From assembly GCA_029058455.1 (NCBI GenBank), contig JAIDXU010000281.1:1-16503 (forward strand): a DNA stretch of 16,503 bases, read 5' to 3'. Origin of the DNA: Paramuribaculum sp. Lineage in GTDB: Bacteria; Bacteroidota; Bacteroidia; Bacteroidales; Muribaculaceae. Made by a program: the position numbers and the translations under genes. Below the pieces are notes generated by a model. The model made no database searches. It was not told the DNA's origin and was given only the letters and a program-made list of their open reading frames with translations. Below are positions 1 through 16,503 of the stretch, piece after piece (position 1 is the stretch's first letter; the number at the start of each line of letters is the position of its first letter).

Positions 1-91
1 GGATACATAGCTGTTACACAACTTGACACAACCCTATAAACCAACAAGATAAAAGTTCACACAAAATATCACATTCCTGTTACATCACCGC
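1..91 (-). repeat. Left copy of a 91-bp inverted repeat flanking the window
   Basis: The reverse complement of this segment matches 16317-16407 without gaps at 84 of 91 positions. The mismatches fall at left-copy positions 3, 8, 9, 10, 19, 61 and 63, so there are identical runs of 41 bases (20-60) and 28 bases (64-91). It begins at the first base of the window, so the true repeat may extend further left. It lies 24 bp beyond the stop codon of the membrane-protein gene at 116-709 and, like the other copy, is oriented outward from that gene. Function is unknown. Confidence 0.93.
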
Positions 92-115
92 AAAATTTCT
101 GTAAATTTCTATTGT

Positions 116-709
116 TTATTGCTCATTCTGCTCTTGCAGGTCGGAGAGGAGGGTGTCGTTGGTGTGTTGCATTTTGCGGAAAATTATCACTATCACGACC
201 AGACCTATGAGTCCTCCGATTATCCCGCCGATTATGCCACCCTGACGCGCGGCGGCAAGATAGTCACCTGCAAATGACATATCGGTGTTGACCAACATAG
301 CCGTAATAAATGCGATAAGCCATATAAGAGTGAGGGGAAACATGACGCAGGTCTGAATCATGCGCTCTTTTTTCTGCCGTATCAGAAATTTCCCGAGGTC
401 GATGATAGAGGAATCGCTGAACATGCGGGGAGGTATGCGCACGGTGCACCAGTCTAAGGCGGTGTCGATGGCGCCGAATATCAGAAATGCTACTGCAAAC
501 CATTGGGAAATGCCATAGGCGGCACATATAACGGCGAGAAGAAGGTAAACGAGGGGTATAGCGATAATCTCGGCATTGACAAATCTGTTGAGCCACGAGG
601 CTTTTGAGCGCATGACCTTGCGCATGAGCTGGCGGTTAATGATCTGTTGGGTGTCAAGACTGTGTTTCATGGCAGCGAGCTGCTGACGCATTATTTCAAG
701 TTCATCCAT
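116..709 (-). CDS. Four-helix membrane protein downstream of an ECF sigma factor (possible non-canonical anti-sigma)
   Basis: This 197-residue protein has a charged, heptad-like N-terminus (about residues 1-40, probably a short coiled coil). Four hydrophobic segments follow at about 46-66, 69-87, 118-140 and 157-177, then a polar tail rich in Gln, Glu and Asp. The last membrane segment carries a glycine-zipper pattern (GGIIGGIIGGLIG, residues 158-170), which favours tight helix packing. There is no signal peptide, zinc-anti-sigma motif (HxxxCxxC) or FecR domain. The gene starts 12 bp after the stop of the sigma factor gene, so the two are almost certainly co-transcribed. I infer that it may hold the sigma factor at the inner membrane, as cognate anti-sigmas often do, but no recognised anti-sigma domain supports this. 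An unrelated membrane role is possible. No named family recognised. Confidence 0.85.
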   Translation of the reverse strand: MDELEIMRQQLAAMKHSLDTQQIINRQLMRKVMRSKASWLNRFVNAEIIAIPLVYLLLAVICAAYGISQWFAVAFLIFGAIDTALDWCTVRIPPRMFSDSSIIDLGKFLIRQKKERMIQTCVMFPLTLIWLIAFITAMLVNTDMSFAGDYLAAARQGGIIGGIIGGLIGLVVIVIIFRKMQHTNDTLLSDLQEQNEQ

Positions 710-721
710 TGATAGAAAGGG

Positions 722-1192
722 TTAGAGAGATTTGAGTTTTTCTTTGATTCTCACGAGGCGGGTGCCCACGGCGCGGGTTGATGTGCCCACAATGGCTGCG
801 ATCTCATCATAAGATAGATTTTCGAGCCATAACAACACTATTGCGCGGTCAACGGGCTGGAGCTTCATAATGCGGTTATGGAGCTGTTCGGTCTGACGGC
901 TTTCGCCCGAGTCGCCTCCTATTATATCGGGGGCGATGTCGAGGGGAATGGTGCGCGGGCGTTTCTTGCGTTTGTAGGATATGCAGGTGTTCATGCTCAC
1001 GCGATATATCCATGAGCGCAAGTCGGAGTCGCCGCGAAATTTATCAAAACCGTTCCATAGGTTGATGAGCACCTCCTGAAAGAGATCGTCGGTTTCTATT
1101 CGCGTCTCGGCAAACATATAACAGACCGAGTAGATGGTGGTTTTGTGTTGGGTCACCATCCTCTCGAAGTCATCTTTAAGATTGGATTCCAT
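722..1192 (-). CDS. ECF-type sigma-70 family RNA polymerase sigma factor
   Basis: This 156-residue protein directs RNA polymerase to a regulon that cannot be read from the window. Region 2 spans about residues 8-75: the core-binding stretch reads DDLFQEVLINLWNGFDKF, followed by DLRSWIYRVSMNTCISYKRK, the part that melts and recognises the -10 element. Region 4 spans about 104-155, with LQPVDRAIVLLWLENLSYDEIAAI and the recognition helix GTSTRAVGTRLVRIKEKL. There is no region 1 or 3, and the length is typical of the ECF group. The ATG at 1190-1192 is the natural start because region 2 begins a few residues later. The next gene, 12 bp downstream, encodes a membrane protein that may be its partner. 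Upstream on the minus strand lies TAGTTTG, one base short of the Bacteroidota -7 element, so the promoter is uncertain and could be self-recognised. Confidence 0.96.
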   Translation of the reverse strand: MESNLKDDFERMVTQHKTTIYSVCYMFAETRIETDDLFQEVLINLWNGFDKFRGDSDLRSWIYRVSMNTCISYKRKKRPRTIPLDIAPDIIGGDSGESRQTEQLHNRIMKLQPVDRAIVLLWLENLSYDEIAAIVGTSTRAVGTRLVRIKEKLKSL

Positions 1193-1277
1193 TTCAATCG
1201 AAGTAGAATTGTTGGGATTATATATATTAGACGCAAACTATCCTCAATAATTACCGATTTTCGGGAGAAATAAGCAC

Positions 1278-1321
1278 AAAAAAAGCCCGGAGAAGCTCGG
1301 GCGAGCCTTCCGGACTTTTTT
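1278..1321 (-). terminator. Rho-independent terminator after yebC
   Basis: On the minus strand the hairpin opens with AGTCCGGA pairing with TCCGGGCT (one G-U pair) and holds an inner GCTCG/CGAGC stem. It is followed by seven T residues. It lies 17 bp beyond the yebC stop. A run of T also follows on the plus strand, so it could work in both directions, though no plus-strand gene precedes it. Confidence 0.88.
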
Positions 1322-1337
1322 ATGACAGGAAAGATGA

Positions 1338-2075
1338 TTAATCTTCTTTCATGTTGTGGTAAACGTTCTGCACGTCTTCATCTTCCTCAAACTTCTCAAG
1401 GAGCTTTTCGAGTGAAGCGCGCTGCTCTTCGGTAACCTCCTTAAGTTCGTGGGGAATGCGCTCAAATTCGGCGCTTACGATCTCAAAGCCGTTATCTTCG
1501 AGATATTTCTGGATATTGGCAAATTCCTCAAAGGCACCGTAGATGGCGAGAACTTCGATTTCATCCTCCTCGCCGGCGGTATCCTGTTCGATTTCGTCAA
1601 CGCCATAGTCGATGAGCTCGAGTTCGAGATCTTCGAGTTCGACATCGGCTTTGGGTTTAACTTTAAAGACGCTCTTGTGGTCGAAGAGGAAGGCGAGAGA
1701 GCCCTGAGTGCCGAGGTTTCCTCCATGTTTGTTGAAATATGAACGCACGTTGGCCACGGTGCGGGTATTGTTGTCGGTAGCTGCCTCTACCACGATGGCG
1801 ATGCCGAAGGGGCCATATCCTTCATAAACGATTTCCTTATAATCGGAAGCGTCTTTTTCGGTGGCCTTCTTGATGGCGCGTTCAACGGTATCCTTAGGCA
1901 TGTTGGCGGCCTTGGCATTCTGCATCAGCACGCGGAGGCGGGGGTTGGTGTCGGGATCGGGACCACCGGCCTTGGCGGCGATGGTGATTTCCTTACCGAT
2001 ACGGGTAAAAGTGCGGGACATGTTGCCCCAACGTTTCAGTTTTCTTGCTTTGCGATATTCAAACGCTCTTCCCAT
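1338..2075 (-). CDS. yebC: YebC/PmpR (TACO1) family protein
   Basis: This 245-residue protein is typical in length and sequence for the family. The N-terminus MGRAFEYRKARKLKRWGNMSR and the block FTRIGKEITIAAKAGGPDP, then NPRLRVLMQNAKAANMPKD and YEGYGPFGIAIVVEAATDN, are the conserved blocks of domain 1 and the domain 1/2 junction. The acidic C-terminal half (about 130-245) contains domains 2 and 3. The family was long annotated as DNA-binding regulators. Mitochondrial TACO1 and later bacterial work point instead to a ribosome-associated role in translation of difficult stretches such as proline runs. Its position 66 bp behind pheT, with no promoter of its own that I can see and a terminator just after it, suggests one translation-related operon. 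The family call is secure. The molecular role is drawn from homologues. Confidence 0.97.
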   Translation of the reverse strand: MGRAFEYRKARKLKRWGNMSRTFTRIGKEITIAAKAGGPDPDTNPRLRVLMQNAKAANMPKDTVERAIKKATEKDASDYKEIVYEGYGPFGIAIVVEAATDNNTRTVANVRSYFNKHGGNLGTQGSLAFLFDHKSVFKVKPKADVELEDLELELIDYGVDEIEQDTAGEEDEIEVLAIYGAFEEFANIQKYLEDNGFEIVSAEFERIPHELKEVTEEQRASLEKLLEKFEEDEDVQNVYHNMKED

Positions 2076-2141
2076 AGTTGGATGTTATATTTGGGTTTTA
2101 TGATTTTAGATATAAGAGTCGCGTTGCGGAGCCTGAGAACC

Positions 2142-4610
2142 TTATCGAAGTTCGGCGCCGAGCTGCTTGGTGAGATTGTTGACAATTTTGGTCATCACAG
2201 CTTCGATCTGCTTGTCGACGAGAGTCTTTTCGTCGTCGCGCAGAGTGAGGGCTATGGCGTAGGATTTCTTGCCCTGAGGCAGCTTGTCGCCTTCGTAGAC
2301 ATCGAAGAGGGTAATGTCGCGGAGCAGCTTGCGCTCGGAGCTTCTTACCACTTCCTCGATCTTCGACATGGGAATCGAGGAGTCGATAAGCAGGGCGAGG
2401 TCGCGGCGCACGGCCTGAGTGCGCGGCAGGGGTGAGAAGGTTACCTGTTTCTTGAGGGCGAGTTCGGAGAGGGCGTTCCAGTCAAATTCGGCGTAGAGCA
2501 CCTCCTGACGAATATCGGCCTTGCGAGCGAGAGCCTTGGCCACAATGCCCCATGTGCCGAGATATTTGCCCGAGCGGGTTGAGATATCCATGCCGACCGA
2601 GAAGATGCGGCGAGTGGTGGGAGTCGACTTTAGTTCGCGCGAGCTGAAGCCGAGACGCGCCAGCACACCCTCGATGAGTGACTTGAGATGGAACGGTGTG
2701 GCGGCTTCGGCGGGGGCAAGCCAACCGGCGGGGCGGATGTTGCCCGAGAGCCAGATTGCGAGACGTGCGCCCTCTGAATAAGGAGCGAGGGGGGCGTCGG
2801 CTGTTGAAGACACGTCGGGGCGACGCGAATAGACATTGCCGATCTCATAGAACATGAGGTCGTTTTCGCGGCGGTTGATGTTATGGGCAAGGGATTCGAG
2901 ACCGCCGAAAAGCAGAGTCTGCCTCATTACGTTGAGGTCGTTGCTCAGAGGATTGAGCAGCTTGATGCAACGCTCGGCGGGGAAGTCCTCGAGGTTTTCA
3001 TAATAGGCTTCGGCTGTGAGCGAATTGTTGAGAATCTCGTTACAGCCGAGAGCTGTGAGCTGGTCGGAAATGATGTTGCGCAGCTCATCGTCGGCGTCAA
3101 CCTTCGATTTGATCTGAAGCGAAGCGTGCATTTCGTCGCTAAGCTCTATGTTGTTATAGCCGTAAATGCGGAGAATATCCTCTACCACGTCACAGGGGCG
3201 CTGCACATCGACTCTATATTGAGGCACGGCGAGAGTGAGGCCGCTGTCGGTGCGCTCGATCACCTTCATGTCAAGCGAGCGGGCGATGGCCTCGATGGTG
3301 TCGGCGGGAATCTCTTTTCCGATCAGGGCATTGGCATAGTCGAAGCGCAGATCAACCTTGAAAGGCTCAACGGGATTGGGGTAGATATCCACCGGCTCGC
3401 CGCAGATTTCGCCGCCGGCAATCTCCTTGATCATCATTGCGGCGAGTTTAACGGCAAAGAGGGTCATGTCGGGGTCTGTGCCGCGCTCATATCTGAATGA
3501 GGCGTCGGTGTTGAGGCCGTGGCGACGGGCGGTTTTGCGCACCGAGGTGGCGTTAAACCATGCGCTCTCGAGGAAGATGTCGGTAGAAGCTTCGGTAACG
3601 CCCGAATCCTCACCGCCAAACACGCCGGCGATGCACATCGGGGCGTTGGCATTGCAGATCATGAGGTCGCGGGCGTCGAGCTTGCGTTCCACACCGTCGA
3701 GAGTGGTGAAAGGTGTGCCCTCGGCGCAGGTCTTGACAATGATTTTGCCGCCGTCAACCTTGTTGAGGTCAAAGGCATGCATGGGCTGGCCGAGGCCGAG
3801 GAGTATGAAGTTGGTGATGTCGACAACATTGTTGATGGGGCGCTGGCCTACGGCGGTAAGCAGATTGCGGAGCCATTCGGGGCTTTCAGCCACCTTCACT
3901 CCGCGCATTGTGATGCCGGAATAACGGGGGCATAAATGAGTGTCGGCCACCTCAACGGTCAGCGCGCCGTCGGGGGTGTCGACCTTGAAACCATCAACCG
4001 AGGGGAGAGTCACTTCCACGGGATTGGCATGACAGTCGAGATAAGCCTTGATGTCGCGGGCCACGCCATAGTGAGAGGCGGCATCGACGCGGTTGGGAGT
4101 GAGGTCGACTTCAAGCACATAATCACTCGAGAGATTGAAATATTCGGCGGCGGGAGTGCCGGGGGCGGGCGCGTCGGTGAGCACCATTATACCGTCGTGG
4201 GAGGTGCCGATGCCAATCTCATCTTCGGCGCATATCATGCCGAATGATTCCACGCCGCGAATCTTTGACTTCTTGATCTGAAATTCCTTGCCGTCGGGAT
4301 CATAGAGCACGGTGCCTACGGTGGCCACCACGACATCCTGACCGGCCGCCACATTGGGAGCGCCACAGACTATCTGGGTTGCCTTGCCATCGCCGAGGTC
4401 AACGGTGGTGATATGCAGGTGGTCGGAATCGGGGTGCTCGACGCATGTCAGCACATGGCCGGTAACAATTCCTTTAAGGCCGCCCTTTATCGACTCCACT
4501 TCCTCAACCGATCCGGTTTCGAGACCTACTGAGGTAAGAGTGTCGGCCAAAGCCTCGGGAGAGAGTGTGAGGGGAATGTAGCGTTTAAGCCAGTTGTAGG
4601 ATATATTCAT
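2142..4610 (-). CDS. pheT: Phenylalanine--tRNA ligase, beta subunit
   Basis: This 822-residue protein is full length for a bacterial PheT, which pairs with PheS in an alpha2-beta2 enzyme charging tRNA-Phe in the cytoplasm. Reading from the N-terminus: an EMAP-like tRNA-binding domain at about 40-155 (HPDSDHLHITTVDLGDG and IVCGAPNVAAGQ); the B3/B4 domain holding the editing site, about 215-395 (RPINNVVDITNFILLGLGQP, FGGEDSGV); a B5 domain at about 405-475; the catalytic-like core at about 490-700 (NPLSNDLNVMRQTLL, INRRENDLMFYEIGNVY); and a C-terminal anticodon-binding FDX-ACB domain at about 727-820 (PRTQAVRRDLALLID, FDVYEGDKLPQGKKSYAIAL). The ATG at 4608-4610 begins MNISYNWLKRYI, the usual PheT opening. 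No pheS lies in the window. A strong promoter sits about 97-128 bp upstream, and yebC follows. Confidence 0.99.
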   Translation of the reverse strand: MNISYNWLKRYIPLTLSPEALADTLTSVGLETGSVEEVESIKGGLKGIVTGHVLTCVEHPDSDHLHITTVDLGDGKATQIVCGAPNVAAGQDVVVATVGTVLYDPDGKEFQIKKSKIRGVESFGMICAEDEIGIGTSHDGIMVLTDAPAPGTPAAEYFNLSSDYVLEVDLTPNRVDAASHYGVARDIKAYLDCHANPVEVTLPSVDGFKVDTPDGALTVEVADTHLCPRYSGITMRGVKVAESPEWLRNLLTAVGQRPINNVVDITNFILLGLGQPMHAFDLNKVDGGKIIVKTCAEGTPFTTLDGVERKLDARDLMICNANAPMCIAGVFGGEDSGVTEASTDIFLESAWFNATSVRKTARRHGLNTDASFRYERGTDPDMTLFAVKLAAMMIKEIAGGEICGEPVDIYPNPVEPFKVDLRFDYANALIGKEIPADTIEAIARSLDMKVIERTDSGLTLAVPQYRVDVQRPCDVVEDILRIYGYNNIELSDEMHASLQIKSKVDADDELRNIISDQLTALGCNEILNNSLTAEAYYENLEDFPAERCIKLLNPLSNDLNVMRQTLLFGGLESLAHNINRRENDLMFYEIGNVYSRRPDVSSTADAPLAPYSEGARLAIWLSGNIRPAGWLAPAEAATPFHLKSLIEGVLARLGFSSRELKSTPTTRRIFSVGMDISTRSGKYLGTWGIVAKALARKADIRQEVLYAEFDWNALSELALKKQVTFSPLPRTQAVRRDLALLIDSSIPMSKIEEVVRSSERKLLRDITLFDVYEGDKLPQGKKSYAIALTLRDDEKTLVDKQIEAVMTKIVNNLTKQLGAELR

Positions 4611-4706
4611 TGCAGGAAAAATCAGAAATTGAAGTTATCAAAACGAAACAGACATGAACTGACACAACGATTTTATACGCAAAACCAGCCCATGCCGATT
4701 ATCGCG

Positions 4707-4738
4707 CAAAATTACAAAATCTTGACCGTTTCCCCAAA
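4707..4738 (-). promoter_or_regulatory. Bacteroidota sigma-ABfr-type promoter for pheT-yebC
   Basis: On the minus strand the -33 box TTTG (4738-4735) and the -7 box TAATTTTG (4714-4707) are separated by 20 bp, matching TTTG-N19-21-TAnnTTTG exactly. Transcription should begin a few bases past 4707, leaving a leader of roughly 90 nt before the pheT ATG. I see no T-box or leader peptide in that leader. Confidence 0.85.
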
Positions 4739-4835
4739 AAAAGTTTAGCGCTCTATAATTAAATATGTGTAAAAGCCGCTGCAATAGTCGCTATAACCCA
4801 AAAATAAGAAAAAATCGCTCAAAAAGCTCAAAAAA

Positions 4836-4867
4836 TTTGGCGGATTAAAAAAAAGGTTATACCTTTG
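4836..4867 (+). promoter_or_regulatory. Bacteroidota promoter for the tRNA-Gly/tRNA-Leu unit
   Basis: TTTG at 4836-4839, a 20-bp spacer and TACCTTTG at 4860-4867 form a consensus-perfect promoter. The first base of tRNA-Gly is 34 bp further on, leaving a short precursor leader. It diverges from the pheT promoter; their -33 boxes are about 100 bp apart across an AT-rich stretch. Confidence 0.85.
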
Positions 4868-4901
4868 CAGCGCAAAAGGGGAGCAATCCCCGACAAACCA
4901 T

Positions 4902-4977
<76 letters not shown>

Positions 4978-5028
4978 AAATCCCTCCACATCTTCACGAT
5001 GTGCCTTCTCCACAAAAAATCAACCCAT

Positions 5029-5112
5029 GTCCGGGTGGTGGAATTGGTAGACACGCTACTTTGAGGGGGTAGTGGCCGTTGGGCTGTGTGAGTTCGAATC
5101 TCATCTCGGACA
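5029..5112 (+). tRNA. tRNA-Leu (anticodon GAG)
   Basis: This is a class II tRNA with a long variable arm. The acceptor stem GTCCGGG (5029-5035) pairs with CTCGGAC (5105-5111) with one G-T wobble, and A5112 is the discriminator. The anticodon stem CTACT/GGTAG encloses TTGAGGG, giving GAG and decoding CTC/CTT. The T arm carries TTCGAAT. CCA is not encoded, unlike the neighbouring tRNA-Gly. It sits 51 bp after tRNA-Gly, and the spacer holds a 6-bp hairpin (CACATC/GATGTG, 4987-5003). Confidence 0.96.
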
Positions 5113-5122
5113 CTGATTTCAA

Positions 5123-5158
5123 GCTGCATGACACACGTCGCGCAGCCTTTTTTATTTT
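5123..5158 (+). terminator. Terminator after the tRNA pair
   Basis: GCTGC (5123-5127) pairs with GCAGC (5142-5146), with an inner GAC/GTC helix, followed by TTTTTTATTTT. It starts 10 bp after tRNA-Leu and separates the tRNA unit from the GH110 gene. Confidence 0.8.
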
Positions 5159-5242
5159 CAGGCCTCTCTTCCTCGCCCCGCCGAAAAAGTTTTCAAAGAT
5201 AAATATTTAGAAATATAATTCAACCAACGAGTTATCCCTGAT

Positions 5243-7066
5243 ATGAAAAAAACATTCGCTGTTTTGGTTGGCATGGGTATCGCCCTGCTTGCATCCCTTT
5301 CTGCCGCAGCACAGGGCGTGGTGGTAGACGCCGCCCGCACCTACGGCATCCGTCCCGACACCGGCAAGAGCCTGACTCAGAAAATGGGCCGCGCTCTCGA
5401 CGATATCCGCAAGAAATATAACGGCCATCAGGTAACGCTCCGGCTCGCTCCGGGACGTTATGATTTCTATCCCCACAAATCTGCCGAACGCACCTATTAT
5501 ATCTCTAACCACGATCAGGATAATCCCAAAACAGTCGGGCTGCCCATCGAAGGTATCGACAGCCTGACAATCGACGGCCGCGGAGCCGACCTTATTTTCC
5601 ATGCCCGGATGCTTCCGATTGCAGTTATCGGCAGTCGTGGCTGCGTGGTGAATGATCTCCACATCGATTTCGCCCAGCCTCATATCAGCCAGATCACAAT
5701 CACTGCCAGCGACAGCGTCAACGGCATCAGCTTTAAGACAGCACCTTGGGTCAACTCGCGCATCAACCGGGATGGTGTGCTTGAATTCTTCGGCGAAGGA
5801 TGGCAAAACTCTCCCTGGGGTGGCATACTGTTTGAAGGCGACACCCGCCGGGTGGTTTACCGTACCGGCGACACAGGCGCCAATTTGAAACAGGTGAAAG
5901 CTACCGCTCCGGGATGCTACAACGCGCCGCTGTGGCGCAACGACCATATTCGCCCCGGAATGGTGATGGCTCTGCGAGGCTGGGGACGCCCGGCTCCTGC
6001 GGTGTTTCTCAGCGAATGTGTCAACCCTGTGCTCAATAATGTGCGCATTCATTACGCCGAGGGTATGGGTGTGCTTGCTCAGCTCTGCGACAGCGTGACT
6101 CTCCGTCAGGTCACCGTGGGGCTGCGTGGCGACGACGATCCCCGATACTTCTCTACTCAGGCCGATGCGACTCACTTCTCGGGTTGCAAGGGCTTGATCA
6201 GCTCCACAGGCGGACTGTATGAAGGCATGATGGACGACGCTATTAACGTTCACGGAACGTATCTCAAGGTAGTCGGTGTCGAAAATTCCAACACTCTTGT
6301 CGGAAGATATATGCACGGTCAGAGCTATGGATTCAAATGGGGCGAGCCGGGCGATTCTGTAAGCTTCATCCGCAGTGCCACCATGGAAAATATCGGCGAT
6401 GTCAATTACATCTCATCGATCACCCCTGCCGACGCTCCCACCGACCACGGTGCAAAAACTTTCCGCATCACCTTTAGCAATCCTCTGCCTGACGGAATCA
6501 ACGAGAAAGAGGGATTCGGTATCGAGAATCTTTCATGGACTCCGGAGGTATATTTCTCCGACAATGTGATTCGCAACAACCGTGCCCGCGGCTCCCTCTT
6601 CTCTACTCCTCGCACCACCTTAGTCGAAAACAACCTGTTCGACCACACCTCGGGCACCGCGATCCTGCTCTGCGGCGACTGCAACGGCTGGTATGAAACC
6701 GGCGCCTGCCGCGACGTGACTATTCGGGGCAACCGCTTCATCAATGCCCTGACAAGCCTTTATCAGTTCACCGAGGGCGTTATCTCAATCTATCCCGAGA
6801 TTCCGAACCTTATGGGACAGAAAGCTCTGTTCCACGGTGGCCCCTCTGTTCCCGGTGTAATCATCACCGACAATATCTTTGAATCTTTCGATGCCCCCCT
6901 GCTCTATGCAAAGTCAATCGACGGCCTGCAGTTCCGCAACAACCACATCACTTTCAACCACGACTACCCCGCCTTCCATCGCAACACGTTTAATGTCAAG
7001 CTGGAGCATACGCGTAATGTCGTGATCGACGGCAACAGTTCTCCCCTTTCCATCAAGATCGACTGA
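5243..7066 (+). CDS. Secreted GH110 alpha-1,3-galactosidase
   Basis: This 607-residue exoglycosidase belongs to the family that removes terminal alpha-1,3-linked galactose from blood-group-B-type and, in some members, linear Gal-alpha-1,3-Gal glycans. The N-terminus MKKTFAVLVGMGIALLASLS, followed by AAAQG, is a signal peptidase I signal. There is no lipobox, so a periplasmic or secreted soluble enzyme is expected. From about residue 30 the chain is a right-handed parallel beta-helix with recurrent short strands ending in N-rich turns. Family hallmarks include GRGADLIFHARMLPIAVIGS (112-131 region), EFFGEGWQNSPWGGILFEGD, and MDDAINVHGTYLKV. In the last, D331 and D332 sit in the conserved acidic motif and are candidate catalytic residues. 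Length is normal and there is no carbohydrate-binding module or sorting tail. It stands alone after the tRNA terminator. No convincing promoter was found upstream. Whether it prefers branched or linear substrate cannot be read here. Confidence 0.93.
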   Translation: MKKTFAVLVGMGIALLASLSAAAQGVVVDAARTYGIRPDTGKSLTQKMGRALDDIRKKYNGHQVTLRLAPGRYDFYPHKSAERTYYISNHDQDNPKTVGLPIEGIDSLTIDGRGADLIFHARMLPIAVIGSRGCVVNDLHIDFAQPHISQITITASDSVNGISFKTAPWVNSRINRDGVLEFFGEGWQNSPWGGILFEGDTRRVVYRTGDTGANLKQVKATAPGCYNAPLWRNDHIRPGMVMALRGWGRPAPAVFLSECVNPVLNNVRIHYAEGMGVLAQLCDSVTLRQVTVGLRGDDDPRYFSTQADATHFSGCKGLISSTGGLYEGMMDDAINVHGTYLKVVGVENSNTLVGRYMHGQSYGFKWGEPGDSVSFIRSATMENIGDVNYISSITPADAPTDHGAKTFRITFSNPLPDGINEKEGFGIENLSWTPEVYFSDNVIRNNRARGSLFSTPRTTLVENNLFDHTSGTAILLCGDCNGWYETGACRDVTIRGNRFINALTSLYQFTEGVISIYPEIPNLMGQKALFHGGPSVPGVIITDNIFESFDAPLLYAKSIDGLQFRNNHITFNHDYPAFHRNTFNVKLEHTRNVVIDGNSSPLSIKID

Positions 7067-7131
7067 TTCTCTCCTGCCGATAATCAGCCCAGCAGGGAAT
7101 CACCGCCTGTCACCCTGCGAGGAAACTCGGA

Positions 7132-7245
7132 TTACTCTATGAGTATATTTGTCGATGACGGGGTTAAGACATGCGCCTCCGGAAACATTATAAAATCGTC
7201 AAAATCAGTGCTTCGGCTGTCGATCAGTTCTTTCAGTCTGCCCAT
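7132..7245 (-). CDS. Unidentified 37-residue ORF abutting the four-helix gene
   Basis: The ATG at 7243-7245 follows the TAA of the four-helix gene with no gap (TAAATG), and the ORF runs 37 codons to TAA at 7132-7134. The product begins MGRLKELIDSRSTDFDDF and is acidic and soluble-looking, with no motif I recognise. The abutting stop and start suggest a translationally coupled gene. It is probably the truncated remnant of a longer downstream gene of a former restriction-type locus, but identity is unknown and it may be non-functional. Confidence 0.3.
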   Translation of the reverse strand: MGRLKELIDSRSTDFDDFIMFPEAHVLTPSSTNILIE

Positions 7246-7812: not shown

Positions 7813-7818
7813 GAGAGG

Positions 7819-7827
7819 CCTCCTTTC
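7819..7827 (-). promoter_or_regulatory. Strong Shine-Dalgarno sequence before the four-helix gene
   Basis: On the minus strand GAAAGGAGG ends 6 bp before the ATG at 7812. It is a near-perfect complement of the 16S rRNA tail. Genes in Bacteroidota seldom carry such a sequence, and the other genes here lack it, so it marks this start and hints at a foreign or specially expressed gene. Confidence 0.7.
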
Positions 7828-7829
7828 GC

Positions 7830-7856
7830 AGACGGGTCAGACAAGTCAGACAGGTC
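7830..7856 (-). repeat. Three 9-bp tandem repeats
   Basis: On the minus strand GACCTGTCT, GACTTGTCT and GACCCGTCT follow one another directly, differing at two positions. In the frame of the 55-codon fragment they read as Asp-Leu/Pro-Ser tripeptides. They sit just before the ribosome binding site of the four-helix gene. Confidence 0.85.
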
Positions 7857-8106
7857 AGCCGGGATACCTGAAACGCAGCTCTTGTAATCCCGGCCGTCTG
7901 CCGAGTTGAGTAAATCCCCGGCAGTGGCCCATATCGCCTTGAATAATTCTTGCTTCTGCTGAGTGTTGGTTGCCATAATGCCATAATTAAAACCCGAACA
8001 TCGAATTACAAAGTTACAAACAAAATTTGAGGTAACAATCGGTTATGCTTAAAAACATAATCAATTGTGATTTTAGCGTATATATAATCGTAGAAATATA
8101 AACGCG

Positions 8107-9474: not shown

Positions 9475-9563
9475 AATCATTCTTATTAGATTTTGAAATT
9501 CGGTATATATCAATTTTTTGTGCATTTTTTTGTAACAAACAGTTATCACTCGGTCTGTGAGGG

Positions 9564-9571
9564 CAAAATTA
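9564..9571 (-). promoter_or_regulatory. Probable -7 element for the TlpA-like gene
   Basis: TAATTTTG on the minus strand matches TAnnTTTG exactly and lies 89 bp upstream of the chosen start. No good TTTG box sits about 20 bp further upstream, so this is a half-supported call. Confidence 0.45.
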
Positions 9572-9742
9572 AGAAAATTAATTGAATCACAGGCCTTAAC
9601 CCACAAAATTTTGCTGATTTATATTGATACCAACGCTGTTATTTCAGAATGATTCGCCAACTCTGTGGTTATGATTATCAGGATAATTTGTTCATATCAA
9701 CAAAAATACTGTCAAATAAATTTGATAAAATATAAAGAATAC

Positions 9743-9773
9743 TTGTCTATATGTAAAATATTATATACTTTTG
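9743..9773 (+). promoter_or_regulatory. Bacteroidota promoter for the membrane protein/Xre operon
   Basis: TTG at 9743-9745, a 20-bp spacer and TACTTTTG at 9766-9773 give a good match. The operon's first ATG is 35 bp beyond. The spacing fits the start at 9809 and rules out the longer reading frame that begins at 9665. Confidence 0.8.
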
Positions 9774-9808
9774 CAGCGATAAACATTTTCTCACTAATTT
9801 CACCCTTT

Positions 9809-10204
9809 ATGAAAAAACTCCTTTTCCCTCACATCTTCCAATCTATAGGTTGGATTATGTTTATTCCCGCTATGATAGCAGGAGCGTTGATCTATTTCAA
9901 TATACTTGGTTTTTCCGCCAACATAGAAACGGTTGTTTACAATCTCGTGATTATCGGTATAGCACTCGGAGCATTGTTTATCGTATGCTCAAAAGAGCGC
10001 ATTGAGGATGAAATGATCCAATCAATCCGCCTGGCATCACTTCTTAACTCAATTTATGTATATGTTGCAATGCTCATAATATTCACGATAGTGTTTAACG
10101 GATTTGATTTTCTCAGGTTTGCGGTTATCAATCTTGTGCTTCTCCCAATACTTTTTGTGATTAACTTCCGATTGGAAATACATCGTTATAACAAGATAAG
10201 CTGA
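9809..10204 (+). CDS. Small four-helix membrane protein, operon partner of an Xre regulator
   Basis: This 131-residue protein starts MKKLLFPHIFQSIGWIMFIP and has four hydrophobic segments at about 10-32, 40-60, 76-95 and 103-119. The middle cytoplasmic loop (61-75) carries the charged amphipathic motif SKERIEDEMIQSIRL. The C-terminus is short and basic. The longer in-frame opening at 9665 would cover the promoter and is rejected. The next gene starts 2 bp after its stop. This arrangement, a small membrane protein with a loop of the form ER-x2-DE-x3-IR followed by a tiny Cro-like regulator, recurs in gut Bacteroidota and Firmicutes as far as I recall, with no established function. The loop could be a contact site for the regulator or another partner, which is inference. 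Confidence 0.85.
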   Translation: MKKLLFPHIFQSIGWIMFIPAMIAGALIYFNILGFSANIETVVYNLVIIGIALGALFIVCSKERIEDEMIQSIRLASLLNSIYVYVAMLIIFTIVFNGFDFLRFAVINLVLLPILFVINFRLEIHRYNKIS

Positions 10205-10206
10205 AA

Positions 10207-10407
10207 ATGAAGAATCGAATTAAGGTAGAGCGCGCAGAGATGGATATAACCCAGCAGCAGCTTGCCGAAGCTGTTGGCGTAAGCCGACAAACTATTGTCG
10301 CCATCGAGAAGAATCGCTTTTTACCCTCTACCCCGTTAGCGCTAAAAATCAGCAAATTTTTCGGCAAACCGGTCGAAAGTATTTTCATTCTTGAAGAAAC
10401 CGACTGA
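10207..10407 (+). CDS. Small Xre-family (Cro/CI-type) transcriptional regulator
   Basis: This 66-residue protein is almost entirely one helix-turn-helix domain. DITQQQLAEAVGVSRQTI (13-30) is the helix-turn-helix, with VSRQTIVAIEKNRFLPS the recognition helix and following turn. ALKISKFFGKPVESIFIL closes the fold. The tail ends six residues later, as in the YozG-like subgroup. There is no effector domain, so any signal must reach it through a partner, most simply the membrane protein encoded 2 bp upstream. It probably dimerises and binds its own operon's promoter region, though I see no clear operator there. A strong hairpin terminator lies 105 bp downstream. Confidence 0.95.
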   Translation: MKNRIKVERAEMDITQQQLAEAVGVSRQTIVAIEKNRFLPSTPLALKISKFFGKPVESIFILEETD

Positions 10408-10511
10408 CGACAGCACTTTCAATTCTCAACCCACCGGCACATATAACATCGTGTGTTTTCACCGTCATATCAACTTGAGGTCGATATAAGAATCTCACAA
10501 CCTCGATAATG

Positions 10512-10554
10512 AGAAAATCAGCCATTTAGTATCATATTAAATGGCTGATTTTCT
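10512..10554 (+). terminator. 17-bp perfect hairpin, terminator of the Xre operon
   Basis: AGAAAATCAGCCATTTA (10512-10528) is exactly complementary to 10538-10554 around a 9-base loop, with the 3' arm ending in TTTTCT. It lies between the Xre operon and the promoter of the GH89 gene. It has few G-C pairs and a short T run, so it might instead be a processing or protein-binding site. Confidence 0.75.
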
Positions 10555-10594
10555 TGGTAGATTCGCTGGTGATTACACAGAAAAAATCATGAAG

Positions 10595-10628
10595 TTTGGT
10601 GAATATAAAAAGATTATGCTTATCTTTG
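10595..10628 (+). promoter_or_regulatory. Probable promoter for the GH89 gene
   Basis: TTTG at 10595-10598 and TATCTTTG at 10621-10628 match the Bacteroidota boxes, but the spacer is 22 bp, slightly long. The GH89 ATG follows 28 bp later, giving a short leader. Confidence 0.65.
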
Positions 10629-10656
10629 TGTATATTTTAAACCAATCTGTATTATC

Positions 10657-13600
10657 ATGAAAAAGCTGCGTATATTGCTGGCTTTGGTTATGGCGTTGAC
10701 AGCTTCGGCGGCAGTCGTGGCTTCGACTCCCCAACAGGCCAAGGCACTGACCGATTTTCTTGACCGCATAGGCGGTGACGGCGCAAGTAAACTGATTGTT
10801 ACCGATGTCGATCCGTCGCTCAGCGTCAACGGCAAGGAGAGATTTGTGATTACCTCTCAGGATGGCAAACCTGCGGTTAAGGGCTCTTCGTTGTCGGCTG
10901 TCACTACCGGCATAAACTGGTATCTCAACCATTACGCGCATATCAATCTGTCGTGGAACAATCTCACCACCGACCTCTCAAAAGTCTCTCTTCCCATTCC
11001 GGTAGCCGAGGAGTCTCACGAATCTTCGGCCGACTACCGTTATTATCTCAACTACTGCACATTCAGCTACTCGATGTCGACATGGACATGGGATCGCTGG
11101 CAGAAAGAGATCGACTGGATGGCTCTTCACGGCATTAATATGCCGCTTCAGATCGTTGGTCTCGATGTGGTGTGGAGAAATCTGCTCACCAAATATTATG
11201 ACTATACTCCTGCCGAGGCCGACGCGTTTATCGCCGGCCCATGTTTTCAGGCATGGTGGGGCATGAATAATCTTCAGGGCTGGGGCGGTGCCAATCCCGA
11301 CTGGTGGTATGAGCGTCAGGCCAATCTCGCCCGCAACATTCTTGCCCGCGAGCGTGAGTTAGGCATGGATCCGGTTATTCCGGGCTATAGCGGCTCGGTG
11401 CCCGACAATTTCTATAAAAAGACCCGCAATCGCTCTATAGCTCAGGGCGGATGGTGCGGCTTCACACGCCCTCACCTCCTCGACCCCAACGGCAAGGCCT
11501 TTGCCGAAGTGTCGGCCAACTACTATAAGGAGCTGGAGGCTCTTATGGGCACTTCGGCCTATTATGCGATGGATCCTTTTCATGAGGGTGCCAACACCTC
11601 GGGCATAGATGTGCCGTCGGCCTACCGCGCCATCGGCAATGCCATGCTGTCGGCCAATCCCGAGGCCAAATGGGTGATTCAGTTCTGGCAGTGGAGCAAC
11701 GACCAATATAATGTGCTCGACCAGGTGGAGAAAGGCAAACTGATAATTCTCGATCTGTTCAGCGACGGCCACACTCATTTCAATGCCTATAAATCTCACG
11801 ACGCCGTTTATTGCTCGCTCAATAACTTCGGTGGCCGCACCGGCATGATGGGTCGCGTCAATAAGGTTGTTGACGGATATTTTGATGAAAAAGCAAAAAA
11901 CTCAAACATCAAGGGCATTGGCGCCACTCCCGAGGCTATCGAGCAGGTGAGCGCTCACTATGACATACTTTACGAACTGCCCTGGTATTCATCCAAGCCC
12001 GACCCCGAGGCATGGATGAACGATTATGCCATTGCCCGCTATAGCGTGAATTCGCCCGAAGCCGCCGAGGCATGGGAGTTGCTCAGGAACTCTACCCTCA
12101 GCTGCCCCACGGCGCTTCAAGGCCCTCATGAGGCAGTGATGTGCGGAAGGCCGGCGCTGACCATCAACAGTGTGTCGACATGGGGAGGCTCGACTCTGTT
12201 CTATGATCCTCAGGATGTTATTTCAGCCGCCTACAAACTGCTGGCCGCCAACATTACTGACGGCGAATCGGCTGTAAACAACTATTCTTATGACATAGTG
12301 GATGTTACCCGCCAGACCATGAGCGACTATTCAAAGGCTCTGCTCGACGGCATACGTCAGGCCAATGAGAAGAACGACATCCCTTTGTTTGAGAAGCGTC
12401 GTGACACCTTCCTCAACATGATGCTCGACGTTGACCGTCTGCTCAACACTCATCCCGATTTCATGCTCGGCCACTGGACCGAAATGGCGCGTGATATTGC
12501 CTCTGAATCTCCGGCCACTACCGAAGCCGACGCCGCATGGCTCGAGCATGATAATGCACGCACCCTCATCACGACATGGGGCCCGAGAGCAAGCAGCGAA
12601 AACGGCGGATTGCGCGACTACTCCTATCGTCAGTGGGGTGGCATGATGAAGGATTTTTATTACGGGAGATGGAAAAAATGGTTTGACTCCGGCATGAAGT
12701 CCACCAACTGGTTTACCTACGAATGGGATTGGGCGCACAACGATAATACCCGCTATCCCACAGAGGCTACGGGCAACTCCCGTGAGGTGGCCGAGGGACT
12801 CCTGTCGAAATATCTCTCGCCTCTCACCGGCTCTGACAGCAATGTCTATTACCTCAACCGCTGTCTCGACAATAATCTGCCCGATGAGTTTTCTATCAGC
12901 GTTGCCCGAGGCAATGATTTCACCCCAGCCCTCAATGCCGCCGGCACTACTATTGAGCGGATTGCCATAGACTTTGACAACAACAAGCGGTTTTCAGACT
13001 CGGAGACCGTTGAGAGCGGCGTGATGAAGATAGCTTCCGACGCACCCGTGGGGCGTCACAGCTGTCAAATCACTCTTGCCGACGGCACGGTGGCTAATCT
13101 CAGCGTGGTTGTGTTTGAGCAGATCACAGAGCCGCGCACCGTTTCGGTCGCCACCGAAGATCCCCTCAAGGGCCTTGTGACCATTGACGGTACCGACGCT
13201 CATGAGGTGACCAACACCGACTATGTGGTGATTCGCGCCCTTCCGACCGAGAAATATGACTTTTCGGAATGGACCGACGCCTCGGGCAAGAGTGTTGGAA
13301 ACGACAATCCCTATACATATTACGGTAAGGAAAATGCTTCGTTTACCGCACACTTTGTTGAAAACAAATGGGGCGTACCCGCCACCGACTACAAAGACCG
13401 CGCCGACATCGAGAAATATAAACAGTATGTCAAGTCTATCGATGTAGTGCAGAACGAGGTAGCTACCAACCTCTACTCCACCGAGTCGCTTCCCGAAAAG
13501 CAGTTCAACTACATTCAGCAGCGCATCAAGGCTGCTCCCGGCGGCGAGTTTGAGATTGACTGGAGCGATGCCGGTGGCCTTAAATGGCTCTTCCTGTCGG

Positions 13601-14352
13601 CTTATCTCGACTATGACGCTGACGGAAAGTTTAATAAGCAGAACGAATTGCTTTGCACCCTCGGCAAACATCGCAACAACAATAACAGTGATGTGGCCAA
13701 GGGTGTGATGAAGGTTGTTCTACCATTTGACGCGCCAAAGGGTGTAACCCACATGCGTATGCGTTTCGACAGCTCATGGTTTGAGCCGTGGGATGAAGCA
13801 ACCGGCGCTTATGACGCCGATATGACCGTGACACGTTTCGCATACGAGTTTCTGGTTGAGCTTAACGACTCGCCCGAATATGAGAGCAAGGTTTCGGTAA
13901 AGCCCAACGATCCGAAACTCGGCTCGGTGAGCATTGACCGCTCGACCTATCAGCCCGGCGAGAAGGTTGTGATCTTCTCCTATCCTTCCGAGGGTTATCA
14001 CATCGCAAGATGGGTCGATCAGCATGGCCGCACCCTTCCGTCAGAATGGATGGATGGCAACTCGCTCACCTTTATGGTGTATGACAATGCGGAAATCACT
14101 GCGATTTTTGAGCCCGGCGAATCAAATGCAGCTCGCCCCGATGATGACAAGCGGGCCCTCTCGTCGCTTCTCGAAGGCAATCGCCTTATAGTCTCCAATC
14201 TCAACGCCGGTGAGACCATTAGGCTCGTCAACATTTCCGGTCAGACACTTTCCACTATCACAGCTACCTCCTCTACCGCTACCCTCACTCTTCCCTCTCC
14301 GGGTGCCTATTTTGTAGCTACCCCTCTCGACACCATCAAAATTGTCTACTGA
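10657..14352 (+). CDS. Large modular GH89 alpha-N-acetylglucosaminidase with C-terminal sorting domain
   Basis: This 1231-residue enzyme should release terminal alpha-linked GlcNAc, as on class III mucin or heparan-type glycans. A signal peptide (MKKLRILLALVMALTASAAV) precedes the NAGLU N-terminal domain (about 25-110), the catalytic barrel (about 125-455) and the helical C-terminal domain (about 465-735). Barrel landmarks include YYLNYCTFSYSMSTWTWDRW, WWGMNNLQGWGG, E310 in DPFHEG and E426 in GATPEAIEQ, which line up by context with the two catalytic glutamates of human NAGLU (E316, E446). After a beta domain (about 740-822) come an InlB-B-like repeat (826-906), a GEVED-like domain (about 911-1068) and a second InlB-like repeat (about 1075-1153). 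The C-terminal domain (about 1165-1231, with GETIRLVNISGQTL and PGAYFV) resembles a T9SS type A sorting domain. The catalytic assignment is strong; the accessory domain names are by pattern. Confidence 0.95.
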   Translation: MKKLRILLALVMALTASAAVVASTPQQAKALTDFLDRIGGDGASKLIVTDVDPSLSVNGKERFVITSQDGKPAVKGSSLSAVTTGINWYLNHYAHINLSWNNLTTDLSKVSLPIPVAEESHESSADYRYYLNYCTFSYSMSTWTWDRWQKEIDWMALHGINMPLQIVGLDVVWRNLLTKYYDYTPAEADAFIAGPCFQAWWGMNNLQGWGGANPDWWYERQANLARNILARERELGMDPVIPGYSGSVPDNFYKKTRNRSIAQGGWCGFTRPHLLDPNGKAFAEVSANYYKELEALMGTSAYYAMDPFHEGANTSGIDVPSAYRAIGNAMLSANPEAKWVIQFWQWSNDQYNVLDQVEKGKLIILDLFSDGHTHFNAYKSHDAVYCSLNNFGGRTGMMGRVNKVVDGYFDEKAKNSNIKGIGATPEAIEQVSAHYDILYELPWYSSKPDPEAWMNDYAIARYSVNSPEAAEAWELLRNSTLSCPTALQGPHEAVMCGRPALTINSVSTWGGSTLFYDPQDVISAAYKLLAANITDGESAVNNYSYDIVDVTRQTMSDYSKALLDGIRQANEKNDIPLFEKRRDTFLNMMLDVDRLLNTHPDFMLGHWTEMARDIASESPATTEADAAWLEHDNARTLITTWGPRASSENGGLRDYSYRQWGGMMKDFYYGRWKKWFDSGMKSTNWFTYEWDWAHNDNTRYPTEATGNSREVAEGLLSKYLSPLTGSDSNVYYLNRCLDNNLPDEFSISVARGNDFTPALNAAGTTIERIAIDFDNNKRFSDSETVESGVMKIASDAPVGRHSCQITLADGTVANLSVVVFEQITEPRTVSVATEDPLKGLVTIDGTDAHEVTNTDYVVIRALPTEKYDFSEWTDASGKSVGNDNPYTYYGKENASFTAHFVENKWGVPATDYKDRADIEKYKQYVKSIDVVQNEVATNLYSTESLPEKQFNYIQQRIKAAPGGEFEIDWSDAGGLKWLFLSAYLDYDADGKFNKQNELLCTLGKHRNNNNSDVAKGVMKVVLPFDAPKGVTHMRMRFDSSWFEPWDEATGAYDADMTVTRFAYEFLVELNDSPEYESKVSVKPNDPKLGSVSIDRSTYQPGEKVVIFSYPSEGYHIARWVDQHGRTLPSEWMDGNSLTFMVYDNAEITAIFEPGESNAARPDDDKRALSSLLEGNRLIVSNLNAGETIRLVNISGQTLSTITATSSTATLTLPSPGAYFVATPLDTIKIVY

Positions 14353-14372
14353 TCCTAATTTTATCCTCAAAA

Positions 14373-14404
14373 AAACAGCCGGGCCGCGATAGGCTCGGCT
14401 GTTT
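14373..14404. terminator. Bidirectional terminator between GH89 and flippase genes
   Basis: AAACAGCCGGGCC (14373-14385) pairs with GGCTCGGCTGTTT (14392-14404), 13 bp with one G-T pair and a 6-base loop. On the minus strand it is followed by seven T residues, and on the plus strand by TTTCTGTTT. It serves the two convergent genes. Confidence 0.9.
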
Positions 14405-14417
14405 CTGTTTCATGCCA

Positions 14418-15689
14418 TTATGAATCAGTATTGTGGTCCTTGTGTTCTATGAATATCCTTGTTGAGAGATAAAGTCTGAAAAGCGCCTCCACAATATATG
14501 AGGTGACTATTACCAATATAAAACTGGTGATTGATGTTAGCCAGCCTCCTATCCACATGATTGCGAGCATGATCACATAGCTGCATGAGCTGAAGATAGT
14601 AGAATAGAGCACATATTTGTTTCTTCCGAACACTACAAACACTCCGGTGGGAATATAGTAGCTCAGCCCTGTAAAGATCGGCACAAGAAGATATATCCTA
14701 AGAGGCATCAGATCGATCTCCTCATTGATGAAGAATTTTACAATCTGTGGCAGAAAGAGATATATCACACTCACCATCGCTATTGACAACAGAAACAGGC
14801 CTCCCAATATCCTCTTTGTTTTCCTCACGTCGGGATTTCGCGACATGCTTGGGAAAATGGCGTTGCTGAATATAAAGGTAGGTTTGACAAGAAGATTCAC
14901 CATCTTCGTTCCTATGTCATATATCACTATATCACTCATGCCGAGAATACCTCCCATAAAGTTATAGCTGAGCTTATCCTTTATATTGAGCATTACATCG
15001 CTCAGAAATATCGGGGTTGTTTCCTTGAGGTGGAAACGGTAGTCTTTCAATCTGGGGCGAAGAAATCTCAGGTCATGCTTATTATATACTATATGCAGGG
15101 AATATATACCTCCGAGCAGATAACCCACCGACCACGTCAGCGGCACATATATATATTGATAGGGTTGGGTGATGAGTATGAAGGTCGCGACTATAAAGAC
15201 AAGTCGGGTAAAGACATTCACTATCGTTATATATCTCATCTGCTCTATACCCTGAAAATAGAAGTCAGGAAGCAGAAGTGCATTTAATGTAAGACCGTAT
15301 GAAAACAGGAAAAGAACCCAGTGCTCACGGTAGGACGGTATCAGACACACCACACTCATATATAGAATAAATGTGACAATCCATAATATGACCCGCAACA
15401 TCATAACGGTTGACACCACGCGGCTTAACTCCTCAATGCTTTCACGCACCGCAGCAACATATTTGGCACTTACACGACGGAATCCGAAATCTATAAGTAT
15501 TGTTGCATAGAATGACGTTGCCTGAGCCAGGATTACCCATCCGTATAGTTCCTTACCCAACACTCTTACAAGATATGGAAAGGTAATAATCGGCGCAAGG
15601 ATAGAAAATATTTCCAATATCGCCAGATAGGAGAAATTTGAAAATATCCTCTTATTTCTTGAAACCAACGATGTCAGTCGTCTATACAT
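14418..15689 (-). CDS. Wzx-type oligosaccharide flippase (MOP superfamily)
   Basis: This 423-residue polytopic inner-membrane protein, with roughly twelve hydrophobic segments, belongs to the polysaccharide biosynthesis/flippase family. Such proteins flip undecaprenyl-linked O-unit or capsule repeats to the periplasmic face. Family landmarks include an N-terminal amphipathic start, ITFPYLVRVLGKELYGWVIL (residues about 35-54), the DFGFRRVSAKYVA loop, and DVMLNIKDKLSYNFMGGILG (central, substrate-side helix). It is slightly shorter than many Wzx proteins but looks complete. No glycosyltransferase, Wzy polymerase or chain-length gene is next to it, so it is an isolated flippase. Its coding sequence is visibly richer in A and T than the GH89 gene beside it, a possible sign of separate origin. 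Substrate unknown. Confidence 0.92.
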   Translation of the reverse strand: MYRRLTSLVSRNKRIFSNFSYLAILEIFSILAPIITFPYLVRVLGKELYGWVILAQATSFYATILIDFGFRRVSAKYVAAVRESIEELSRVVSTVMMLRVILWIVTFILYMSVVCLIPSYREHWVLFLFSYGLTLNALLLPDFYFQGIEQMRYITIVNVFTRLVFIVATFILITQPYQYIYVPLTWSVGYLLGGIYSLHIVYNKHDLRFLRPRLKDYRFHLKETTPIFLSDVMLNIKDKLSYNFMGGILGMSDIVIYDIGTKMVNLLVKPTFIFSNAIFPSMSRNPDVRKTKRILGGLFLLSIAMVSVIYLFLPQIVKFFINEEIDLMPLRIYLLVPIFTGLSYYIPTGVFVVFGRNKYVLYSTIFSSCSYVIMLAIMWIGGWLTSITSFILVIVTSYIVEALFRLYLSTRIFIEHKDHNTDS

Positions 15690-15770
15690 TAGTTTTTATT
15701 CTTTGCAAGTTAGCGGGTTCTCAATGTGATAATCATTGATATCTATAGTCGGAAAAATTCCATCTACATA

Positions 15771-15778
15771 CAAAATTA
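15771..15778 (-). promoter_or_regulatory. Possible -7 element for the flippase gene
   Basis: TAATTTTG on the minus strand matches TAnnTTTG and lies 81 bp upstream of the ATG. No clear -33 TTTG is found at the proper distance. Offered as a candidate only. Confidence 0.4.
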
Positions 15779-15865
15779 CAAAGATTTCTCTATTTCGCCA
15801 TGTTTGCCCGACAAATTATATATAAGCGGAGGCGGAATGACATGGAAAGCGGAATTGCAGAAATG

Positions 15866-15873
15866 TAAATTTG
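15866..15873 (+). promoter_or_regulatory. Probable -7 element for the amidase gene
   Basis: TAAATTTG at 15866-15873 matches TAnnTTTG and lies 25 bp before the amidase ATG. The -33 region is weak, so activity may need another factor. Confidence 0.5.
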
Positions 15874-15898
15874 CACACTCATTTTTAAATTTTAAATT

Positions 15899-16315
15899 AT
15901 GCGAATAATCGACAAAATCATCATCCATTGCACCGCTACGCCCTTTGGCCGCGATGTCAACGCCGCCGAGATTGACCTATGGCATCGCGGCCGGGGCTGG
16001 AAAGCGATAGGCTATCATTACCTCGTGAAACTCGACGGAACCATCGAGGCGGGGCGCCCCGAAAGGCAGATCGGCGCCCACTGCCGGGGGCAGAACGCCC
16101 GCTCGATCGGCATTGCGTATGTCGGCGGTATTGATGCCCGGGGCAAATGTGCCGATACCCGCACCGACGCCCAGAAAAAATCGCTCCTTTCGCTTATCAC
16201 CACCCTCCTCGACAAATATCCGCAAGCCCGGGTATTCGGACACCGCGATTTCTCTTCAAAAGAGTGCCCGTGTTTTGACGCAACCGGCGAATATTACGCT
16301 TTAGCAAGAAAATGA
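15899..16315 (+). CDS. N-acetylmuramoyl-L-alanine amidase, T7-lysozyme-like (Amidase_2)
   Basis: This 138-residue zinc amidase should cut the bond between N-acetylmuramic acid and L-alanine in peptidoglycan. It is a single catalytic domain. By comparison with T7 lysozyme, the zinc ligands are H10 (in KIIIHCTAT), H115 (in VFGHRDFSS) and C123 (in KECPCFDATGEY). Y39 in IGYHYLV and K121 correspond to the catalytic Tyr and Lys. GAHCRGQNARSIGIAYVGG (59-77) is the conserved loop and strand. There is no signal peptide, membrane anchor, cell-wall-binding domain or adjacent holin, so how it reaches the wall is unclear. Single-domain amidases of this type occur widely in Bacteroidota, including mobile and phage-derived regions. 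The outward-facing 91-bp repeat begins one base after its stop. Confidence 0.95.
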   Translation: MRIIDKIIIHCTATPFGRDVNAAEIDLWHRGRGWKAIGYHYLVKLDGTIEAGRPERQIGAHCRGQNARSIGIAYVGGIDARGKCADTRTDAQKKSLLSLITTLLDKYPQARVFGHRDFSSKECPCFDATGEYYALARK

Positions 16316-16316
16316 G

Positions 16317-16407
16317 GCGGTGATGTAACAGGAATGTGATATTTCGCGTGAACTTTTATCTTGTTGGTTTATAGGGTTGTGTCAAGTTATGTAACAGTCG
16401 TGTAACC
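16317..16407 (+). repeat. Right copy of the 91-bp inverted repeat
   Basis: This copy matches the reverse complement of 1-91 at 84 of 91 ungapped positions and starts one base after the amidase stop. It contains several short TGTAAC/TGTGA-type units spaced about 11 bp apart (for instance starting near 16324, 16335, 16391 and 16402). A complete promoter follows at 16436-16465. The inner edge is set by the amidase gene; the outer match decays near 16407. Confidence 0.93.
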
Positions 16408-16435
16408 ATTTTAACATATTTTAATATGGTAAATA

Positions 16436-16465: not shown

Positions 16466-16503
16466 CATTGTCAAACGACAACAAACACTTCTCAACAACT
16501 CAA

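Follow-up and report, generated by a model that had tools for sequence, protein, structure and literature searches.

An inverted repeat at the ends of a Paramuribaculum contig probably marks two outward-facing sigma-factor control regions

Homogenised duplicate genes are known in bacteria, with tufA/tufB and the ribosomal RNA (rRNA) operons as examples, and operators built of tandem half-sites are known for response regulators of the OmpR/PhoB type. Among extracytoplasmic function (ECF) sigma factors, one study of Bacteroides thetaiotaomicron describes the ECF21 members Das1 and Das2 together with Dma anti-sigma factors (PMC13088901). We analysed a 16,503-bp stretch of a Paramuribaculum sp. 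assembly (GenBank GCA_029058455.1, contig JAIDXU010000281.1, positions 1–16,503; hereafter the window) that carries an inverted repeat at its two ends. We consider it probable (roughly 0.8) that this repeat represents the upstream halves of two control modules that drive sigma-type genes outward, and that assembled contigs break there because the copies are nearly identical. The right copy is almost certainly the control region of a gene of one ECF sigma family, which we label sigma-A, and a second sigma-A gene likely follows the left copy. These grades reflect the location of both genes beyond the contig and, on the left, a departure from an invariant position in the core and the existence of sites that precede other genes.

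In our labelling, the window corresponds to contig C203 of genome G000 (379 contigs, 79.75% complete) over its full length, so both of its ends are assembly ends. The 91-bp inverted repeat reported by the initial annotation was borne out, with 84 of 91 positions identical without gaps between 1–91 and the reverse complement of 16317–16407. The longest exact run was 41 bases, compared with 12–14 when a first-order Markov model of the window was simulated 20 times. Extended to 16310, the identity was 88 of 98, and 1–98/16310–16407 was the longest inverted repeat found by a repeat search of the window. The left copy (1–98, minus strand) reads outward off the contig and ends inside the control-module core, and the right copy (16310–16407, plus strand) also reads outward. 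The further copies for which the initial annotation had proposed a blastn search did not appear in the genome itself, where the remaining matches were 19–20 bp long (E 0.3–0.6), and at E ≤ 0.01 the same search of 60 relatives returned only three matches of 20–28 bp.

Evidence on the identity of the right copy comes from sigma-A genes in related genomes. Protein P0001 of G031, 168 residues long, is an ECF sigma factor whose Sigma-70 regions 2 and 4 (PF04542, Sigma70_r2, and PF08281, Sigma70_r4_2) both score above cut-off; its top NCBIfam equivalog, the PG0214 family, falls below cut-off (86.7 vs 130). Relatives of P0001 at E ≤ 1e-30 occur in 33 of 34 genomes, some of them belonging to a more distant type that lacks the module. 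Records from Bacteroides, Parabacteroides, and Phocaeicola contain proteins about 60% identical to sigma-A. From 32 sigma-A sequences of same-genus relatives, with the window excluded, we built a profile (R2) of the 88-bp half-site and promoter region; five of 37 distinct core sequences (G008c, G006b, G005c, G023a, and G027B) were left out, and G017a was missed by the motif. Profile R2 matched the window at 16390–16477 with 58.5 bits (E 9.6e-18, or 1.2e-15 in the genus scan), and its second-best match in the window had an E of 0.011.

The matched segment (plus strand) is a complete sigma-A-type control-module core, with the array TGTAACA-N5-GTAAC-N4-TTAAC-N5-TTAA followed by a promoter. The predicted promoter (16436–16465, plus strand) consists of TTTG (16436–16439) and TACTTTTG (16458–16465), and it fits the Bacteroidetes −33/−7 consensus TTTG/TAnnTTTG. 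Across the aligned cores of the 32 relatives, its TA and TTTG columns do not vary. The right end therefore contains both parts of a sigma-A control region, the TGTAACA/GTAAC/TTAAC array and the TAnnTTTGCA promoter, within one 88-bp core. The conserved promoter block, on which the initial annotation was silent, extends to the right of the repeat as far as 16477; the left copy lacks a counterpart because the contig stops. What is present on the left is the first 18 core positions, read from base 18 to base 1 as TGTAACAgctatGTATCC, which differ from the relatives at one invariant position. The contig ends 26 bp past the core on the right and inside the core on the left. Alignment of the relatives' genes to P0001 places their start codons 115–193 bp after the core start, so the right-hand start codon is expected about 2–80 bp beyond base 16503.

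The two repeat copies share a second feature upstream of the core. In the left copy, a distal TGTAACA (78–84, minus strand) lies 66 bp from the proximal TGTAACA (12–18, minus strand) that forms the first element of the core. In the right copy, the distal TGTAACA (16324–16330, plus strand) lies 66 bp before the proximal one and falls within a weak separate R2 match (16324–16344, 3.9 bits, E 1). The 66-bp spacing recurs in nine of 38 upstream regions from relatives, while any other offset within 130 bp occurs at most twice, a count in which G030a and G030b are not independent and whose motif was first spotted by eye among part of the sequences counted.

A second profile, R1, built from the two window copies of the repeat, gave 14 matches in relatives of the genus at E ≤ 1, of which we viewed 12 (L137 and L140 were left out). 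Four of the 14 (G011:C45, G033:C18, G031:C1, and G010:C39; E 0.02–0.76) lie directly upstream of sigma-A or, for the one in G010, directly upstream of a core copy at a contig end. The eight other matches viewed, and two weak ones in the window's own genome, have no sigma-A context, and one of the eight (G016:C6) precedes a different sigma-like open reading frame (ORF), as judged by eye. A 28-bp match of 89% identity at locus L007 appeared promising at first and was set aside after inspection by eye revealed no sigma-like ORF beside it.

Contig ends are commonly caused by rRNA operons, and the upstream region of two such operons would account for a promoter facing outward just before the end of a contig in an assembly with no 16S match of its own. 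This identity was rejected for the right end when its sequence was compared by eye with the regions upstream of 16S in G008 and G014, the only two readable in the genus, which are unlike it. Together with the R2 match to sigma-A control regions, this leaves an rRNA leader barely credible, the least probable of the explanations that we weighed.

The initial annotation had also raised the ends of a decayed or non-autonomous mobile element, and inverted repeats that enclose unique DNA do resemble such ends. Its statement that no transposase, integrase, or recombinase lies between the copies agrees with our Pfam scan of 12 window ORFs, in which no such family was matched; two ORFs (116–709 and 9665–10201) had no family at all, and 7246–7812 had one only below cut-off. 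The enclosed pheT was found a single time in this genome, and each of 33 other genomes searched has it as a single gene, either intact or split between contigs, so we regard the segment as ordinary chromosome. Only two copies of the repeat were found in the genome, and the right one continues into a promoter module that is conserved throughout the genus. With blastn, 16310–16503 matched four plasmid records over 27–40 query bases (E 2–7), and among the matches listed for phages, the best 20 of 73 records, the lowest E was 0.6; listed plasmid and phage matches covered at most 27% of the query. Exact-word scans of genome_contigs (30- and 20-mers) and viral_contigs (24- and 23-mers) were empty, in collections that may leave out records very near this genome. 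With neither a recombinase gene nor dispersed copies found, terminal repeats of an element are a highly improbable explanation.

Sites resembling the right-hand core are numerous across the genus, and many lie at contig ends. Scanning 34 genomes with R2 and scoring 130 candidates in each, we found at least 90 strong module matches (above 33 bits), one of which is the window's own. A contig end lies within 650 bp on the gene side of 35 of the 90 sites and on the other side of two, compared with 2.8 per side expected by chance. Within 200 bp, the numbers are 26 and two, with 0.87 expected. On contigs G018:C38 (41,944 bp) and G002:C23 (18,313 bp), outward copies cap both ends at 41–43 bp from the ends, as in the window. 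Within each of three sets of contig ends (G010:C11 and C39, G014:C33 and C8, and the two ends of G018:C38), the sequences are identical for 33–42 bases past the core and break off at a common base, as expected where an assembly graph branches at shared sequence. The ends of G002:C23 are without such identity (63% over 41 bases). These patterns are consistent with assembly halting in or just before the sigma-A gene, such that contigs would end in its control region because one genome can contain sigma-A copies that hardly differ.

The genes behind these sites are most often sigma-like. A sigma-like gene lies directly downstream of 48 of the 90 strong sites, a share that is favoured by the construction of R2 from sigma-A regions. 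The 48 comprise 41 sites with 40 sigma-family genes and one partial gene (G033:C18), at 37–107 bp from core to gene match, and seven more that we inspected, three of them with genes only 31%–42% identical. Another 24 sites, including the window's and that of G010:C39, are cut by a contig end before any gene, and one site has a marginal sigma match only.

In several relatives, sigma-A copies within a genome are nearly identical over promoter and gene (589–740 bp): 98.2% in G030, 96.8% and 97.0% in G008, 96.2% in G006, and 98.8% (589 bp) in G005. Over shorter remnants, identity is 97.5% in G020 and 96.2% in G018. For two species pairs, both copies lie in matching gene neighbourhoods, yet the tree joins the copies by genome, so that within-genome paralogues are closer than positional orthologues. 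The approximately unbiased (AU) test, on a tree of 16 of the 71 genes with groups picked after the first tree was known, rejected the positional pairings G030a+G011a, G030b+G011b, G006a+G005c, and G006b+G005a (p-AU 6e-47 to 3.4e-5). Orthology by position being rejected, copies have been homogenised in those two species pairs, for which gene conversion would be the simplest account, with repeated independent replacement at the same sites as the alternative. An exception is G003/G022, where copies pair across genomes in a separate tree; the tree of the AU analysis backs the b pair only, and the a copies share a common neighbourhood, while the neighbourhoods of the b copies were not shown to match. 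Gene conversion may likewise keep the copies alike in the genome of the window. The suggestion in the initial annotation that outward-facing paralogues share a duplicated control region gains support from these results, since the right copy runs into an ECF sigma control region and near-identical copies occur in some relatives.

Several observations weigh against the view that two sigma-A control regions face outward here. Over the 18 visible bases, the left and right cores are identical at 14, and the left core has T at position 16, where all 32 aligned relatives have A; the left module may have diverged or decayed. The upstream parts of the window pair (73 bp, 95.9%) are more alike than the cores; the opposite holds in each of the 14 other pairs compared, although G018:C38 likewise has shared upstream sequence (94% at 30–80 bp). 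Both downstream genes lie off the contig, and the sole P0001 relative found in the same assembly at E ≤ 1e-30 (G000:C114:1456-1956) is 61% identical and lacks the core. Near-identity of copies is also not universal, since gene identity within a genome is only 73%–87% in G011, G003, G022, G012, G017, G002, and G007, and third copies stand at 76% in G006 and 74% in G005. Finally, 17 of 47 further strong sites inspected have no sigma match in the gene-side sequence fetched (at least 195 bp).

These last sites, and the departure of the left core at an invariant position, would also fit an explanation in which the right copy alone belongs to sigma-A, and the left copy is a decayed remnant or precedes a different gene, such as a C10-family peptidase. 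Strong module sites precede C10 peptidases with an I69 inhibitor domain, as assigned by Pfam, in G030:C26 (L294) and G011:C46 (L322), a protein that looks similar by eye in G007:C4 (L325), and an acetyltransferase in G033:C43. On the other hand, sigma-like genes follow more than half of the strong sites, with the bias of R2 noted above, and the contig halts at the left module as at many sigma-A copies. We therefore consider a different left-hand gene or a remnant unlikely, and a second sigma-A copy the most likely gene on the left. The C10-family peptidases behind the module look secreted, which hints at a shared regulon.

The inverted arrangement of the copies would also make it physically possible, as the initial annotation had raised, for recombination between them to flip the 16.2-kb segment in some members of the population. 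If full genes follow, the arms would exceed 0.7 kb, a length usable for homologous recombination, and the module pairs of G018:C38 and G002:C23 are inverted and outward as well. However, same-contig pairs in G030, G011, and G007 are direct, and no recombinase family is encoded on the contig, though homologous recombination needs none. We judge such inversion to be decidedly improbable.

The location of the right copy may be old. A sigma gene with the module is located 5.8 kb from pheT in G004, with the side and orientation of the window's right copy. On that same side of pheT, at about 12.5–13 kb, G005, G006, and G013 have a more distantly related sigma gene with no module visible. From the position of these four sigma genes, the right copy could be an old neighbour of pheT, which is suggestive only. 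When window proteins were compared with 125 sigma or module loci, the matches were pheT, yebC, a weak sigma similarity of 722–1192 (20%–22%), and one weak GH110-like match (24%). Glycan-degrading genes in the window (5243–7063 and 10657–14349, GLAA-B type and NAGLU) belong to kinds that recur beside pheT in some relatives; among 15 loci compared (L115, L116, and L118 included), NAGLU was found in G027 and G030 and the GLAA-B type in G014.

The genes next to the repeat were of limited use as anchors. The last gene before the right copy encodes an N-acetylmuramoyl-L-alanine amidase (15899–16315, plus strand; PF01510, 65.3 bits), and the 91-bp version of the right copy starts at 16317, two positions past 16315, where the stop codon of the amidase gene ends. 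Sequence downstream of the amidase differs among relatives, which makes this gene unsuited as an anchor, and Rfam at its gathering threshold found nothing in 18 amidase loci; in the window, Rfam identified two transfer RNAs only. The last gene before the left copy encodes a predicted protein without Pfam or NCBIfam match (116–709, minus strand), and from the end of the left copy at 91 there are 25 positions to the last base of its stop codon. Used as an anchor, protein 119–709 matched in one relative only, G009, at 29% identity.

Other features of the window were recorded. On the minus strand, an ECF sigma gene (722–1192) is followed by the gene at 116–709, whose predicted protein has hydrophobic stretches and no family match, possibly a sigma/anti-sigma pair; the gene pair (116–1192) recurs in G009:C31 at 56% (sigma) and 29% identity. 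A near-perfect hairpin (10512–10554; 21-nt arms, 95% complementary, 1-nt loop) lies between a helix-turn-helix gene and the NAGLU gene and is perhaps a bidirectional terminator. The protein of 7246–7812 (minus strand) shows a resemblance, short of the Pfam cut-off (26.3 vs 33.8 bits), to the 23S rRNA-intervening-sequence family. Upstream of its gene, a weak R2 match (8005–8054, minus strand, 10.2 bits, E 0.011) is probably a mere promoter resemblance.

Overall, our preferred reading is that the window ends in two copies of one cis-regulatory module, each of which would drive a gene outward off the contig, with the repeat as their upstream halves. The module would consist of the distal TGTAACA, four TAA(C)-type half-sites arrayed proximally at intervals of 9–11 bp, and a Bacteroidetes-type promoter; the right copy would be a full module before an ECF sigma gene of the sigma-A family. 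Judging from the spacing of the half-sites, a regulator bound along one helix face of the array may control sigma-A. A broader proposal, which we offer as tentative and would not yet favour, is that the genus keeps an ECF sigma gene and its operator in several dispersed, gene-converted copies, which would hold sigma dose in step with operator sequence across the genome. The operator would also control a small regulon that includes secreted C10 peptidases, draft contigs would end at the copies and hide them, and inverted pairs could flip the segment between them. If true, this would be an unusual way of arranging regulation, with an ECF sigma gene and its promoter present in several homogenised copies, and we found no description of such genes for this group in open-licence papers. 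What appears to be an element boundary would become a readable marker of a sigma-factor family lost from draft assemblies. Why the copies stay alike, and what binds the shared operator, are questions that this opens to test.

Compared with the ECF sigma factors described in Bacteroidota, sigma-A has the same two domains, as P0001 illustrates. In contrast to systems such as Das1/Das2 with Dma, clustering of 40 sigma-A loci revealed no neighbour gene common to all, in neighbourhoods not scanned for anti-sigma domains. A further difference is that some genomes have sigma-A two or three times over in nearly identical form. Like the operators of OmpR/PhoB-type regulators, the module has repeated short half-sites, about 9–11 bp apart, beside a promoter; it differs in being a candidate operator, predicted from sequence. 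The closest parallel to the copies themselves is with tufA/tufB and rRNA operons, in that dispersed sigma-A copies cluster by genome despite neighbourhoods that match across species, and contigs break at them. Unlike those genes, sigma-A encodes a regulatory sigma factor, and the stretch that is homogenised takes in the promoter.

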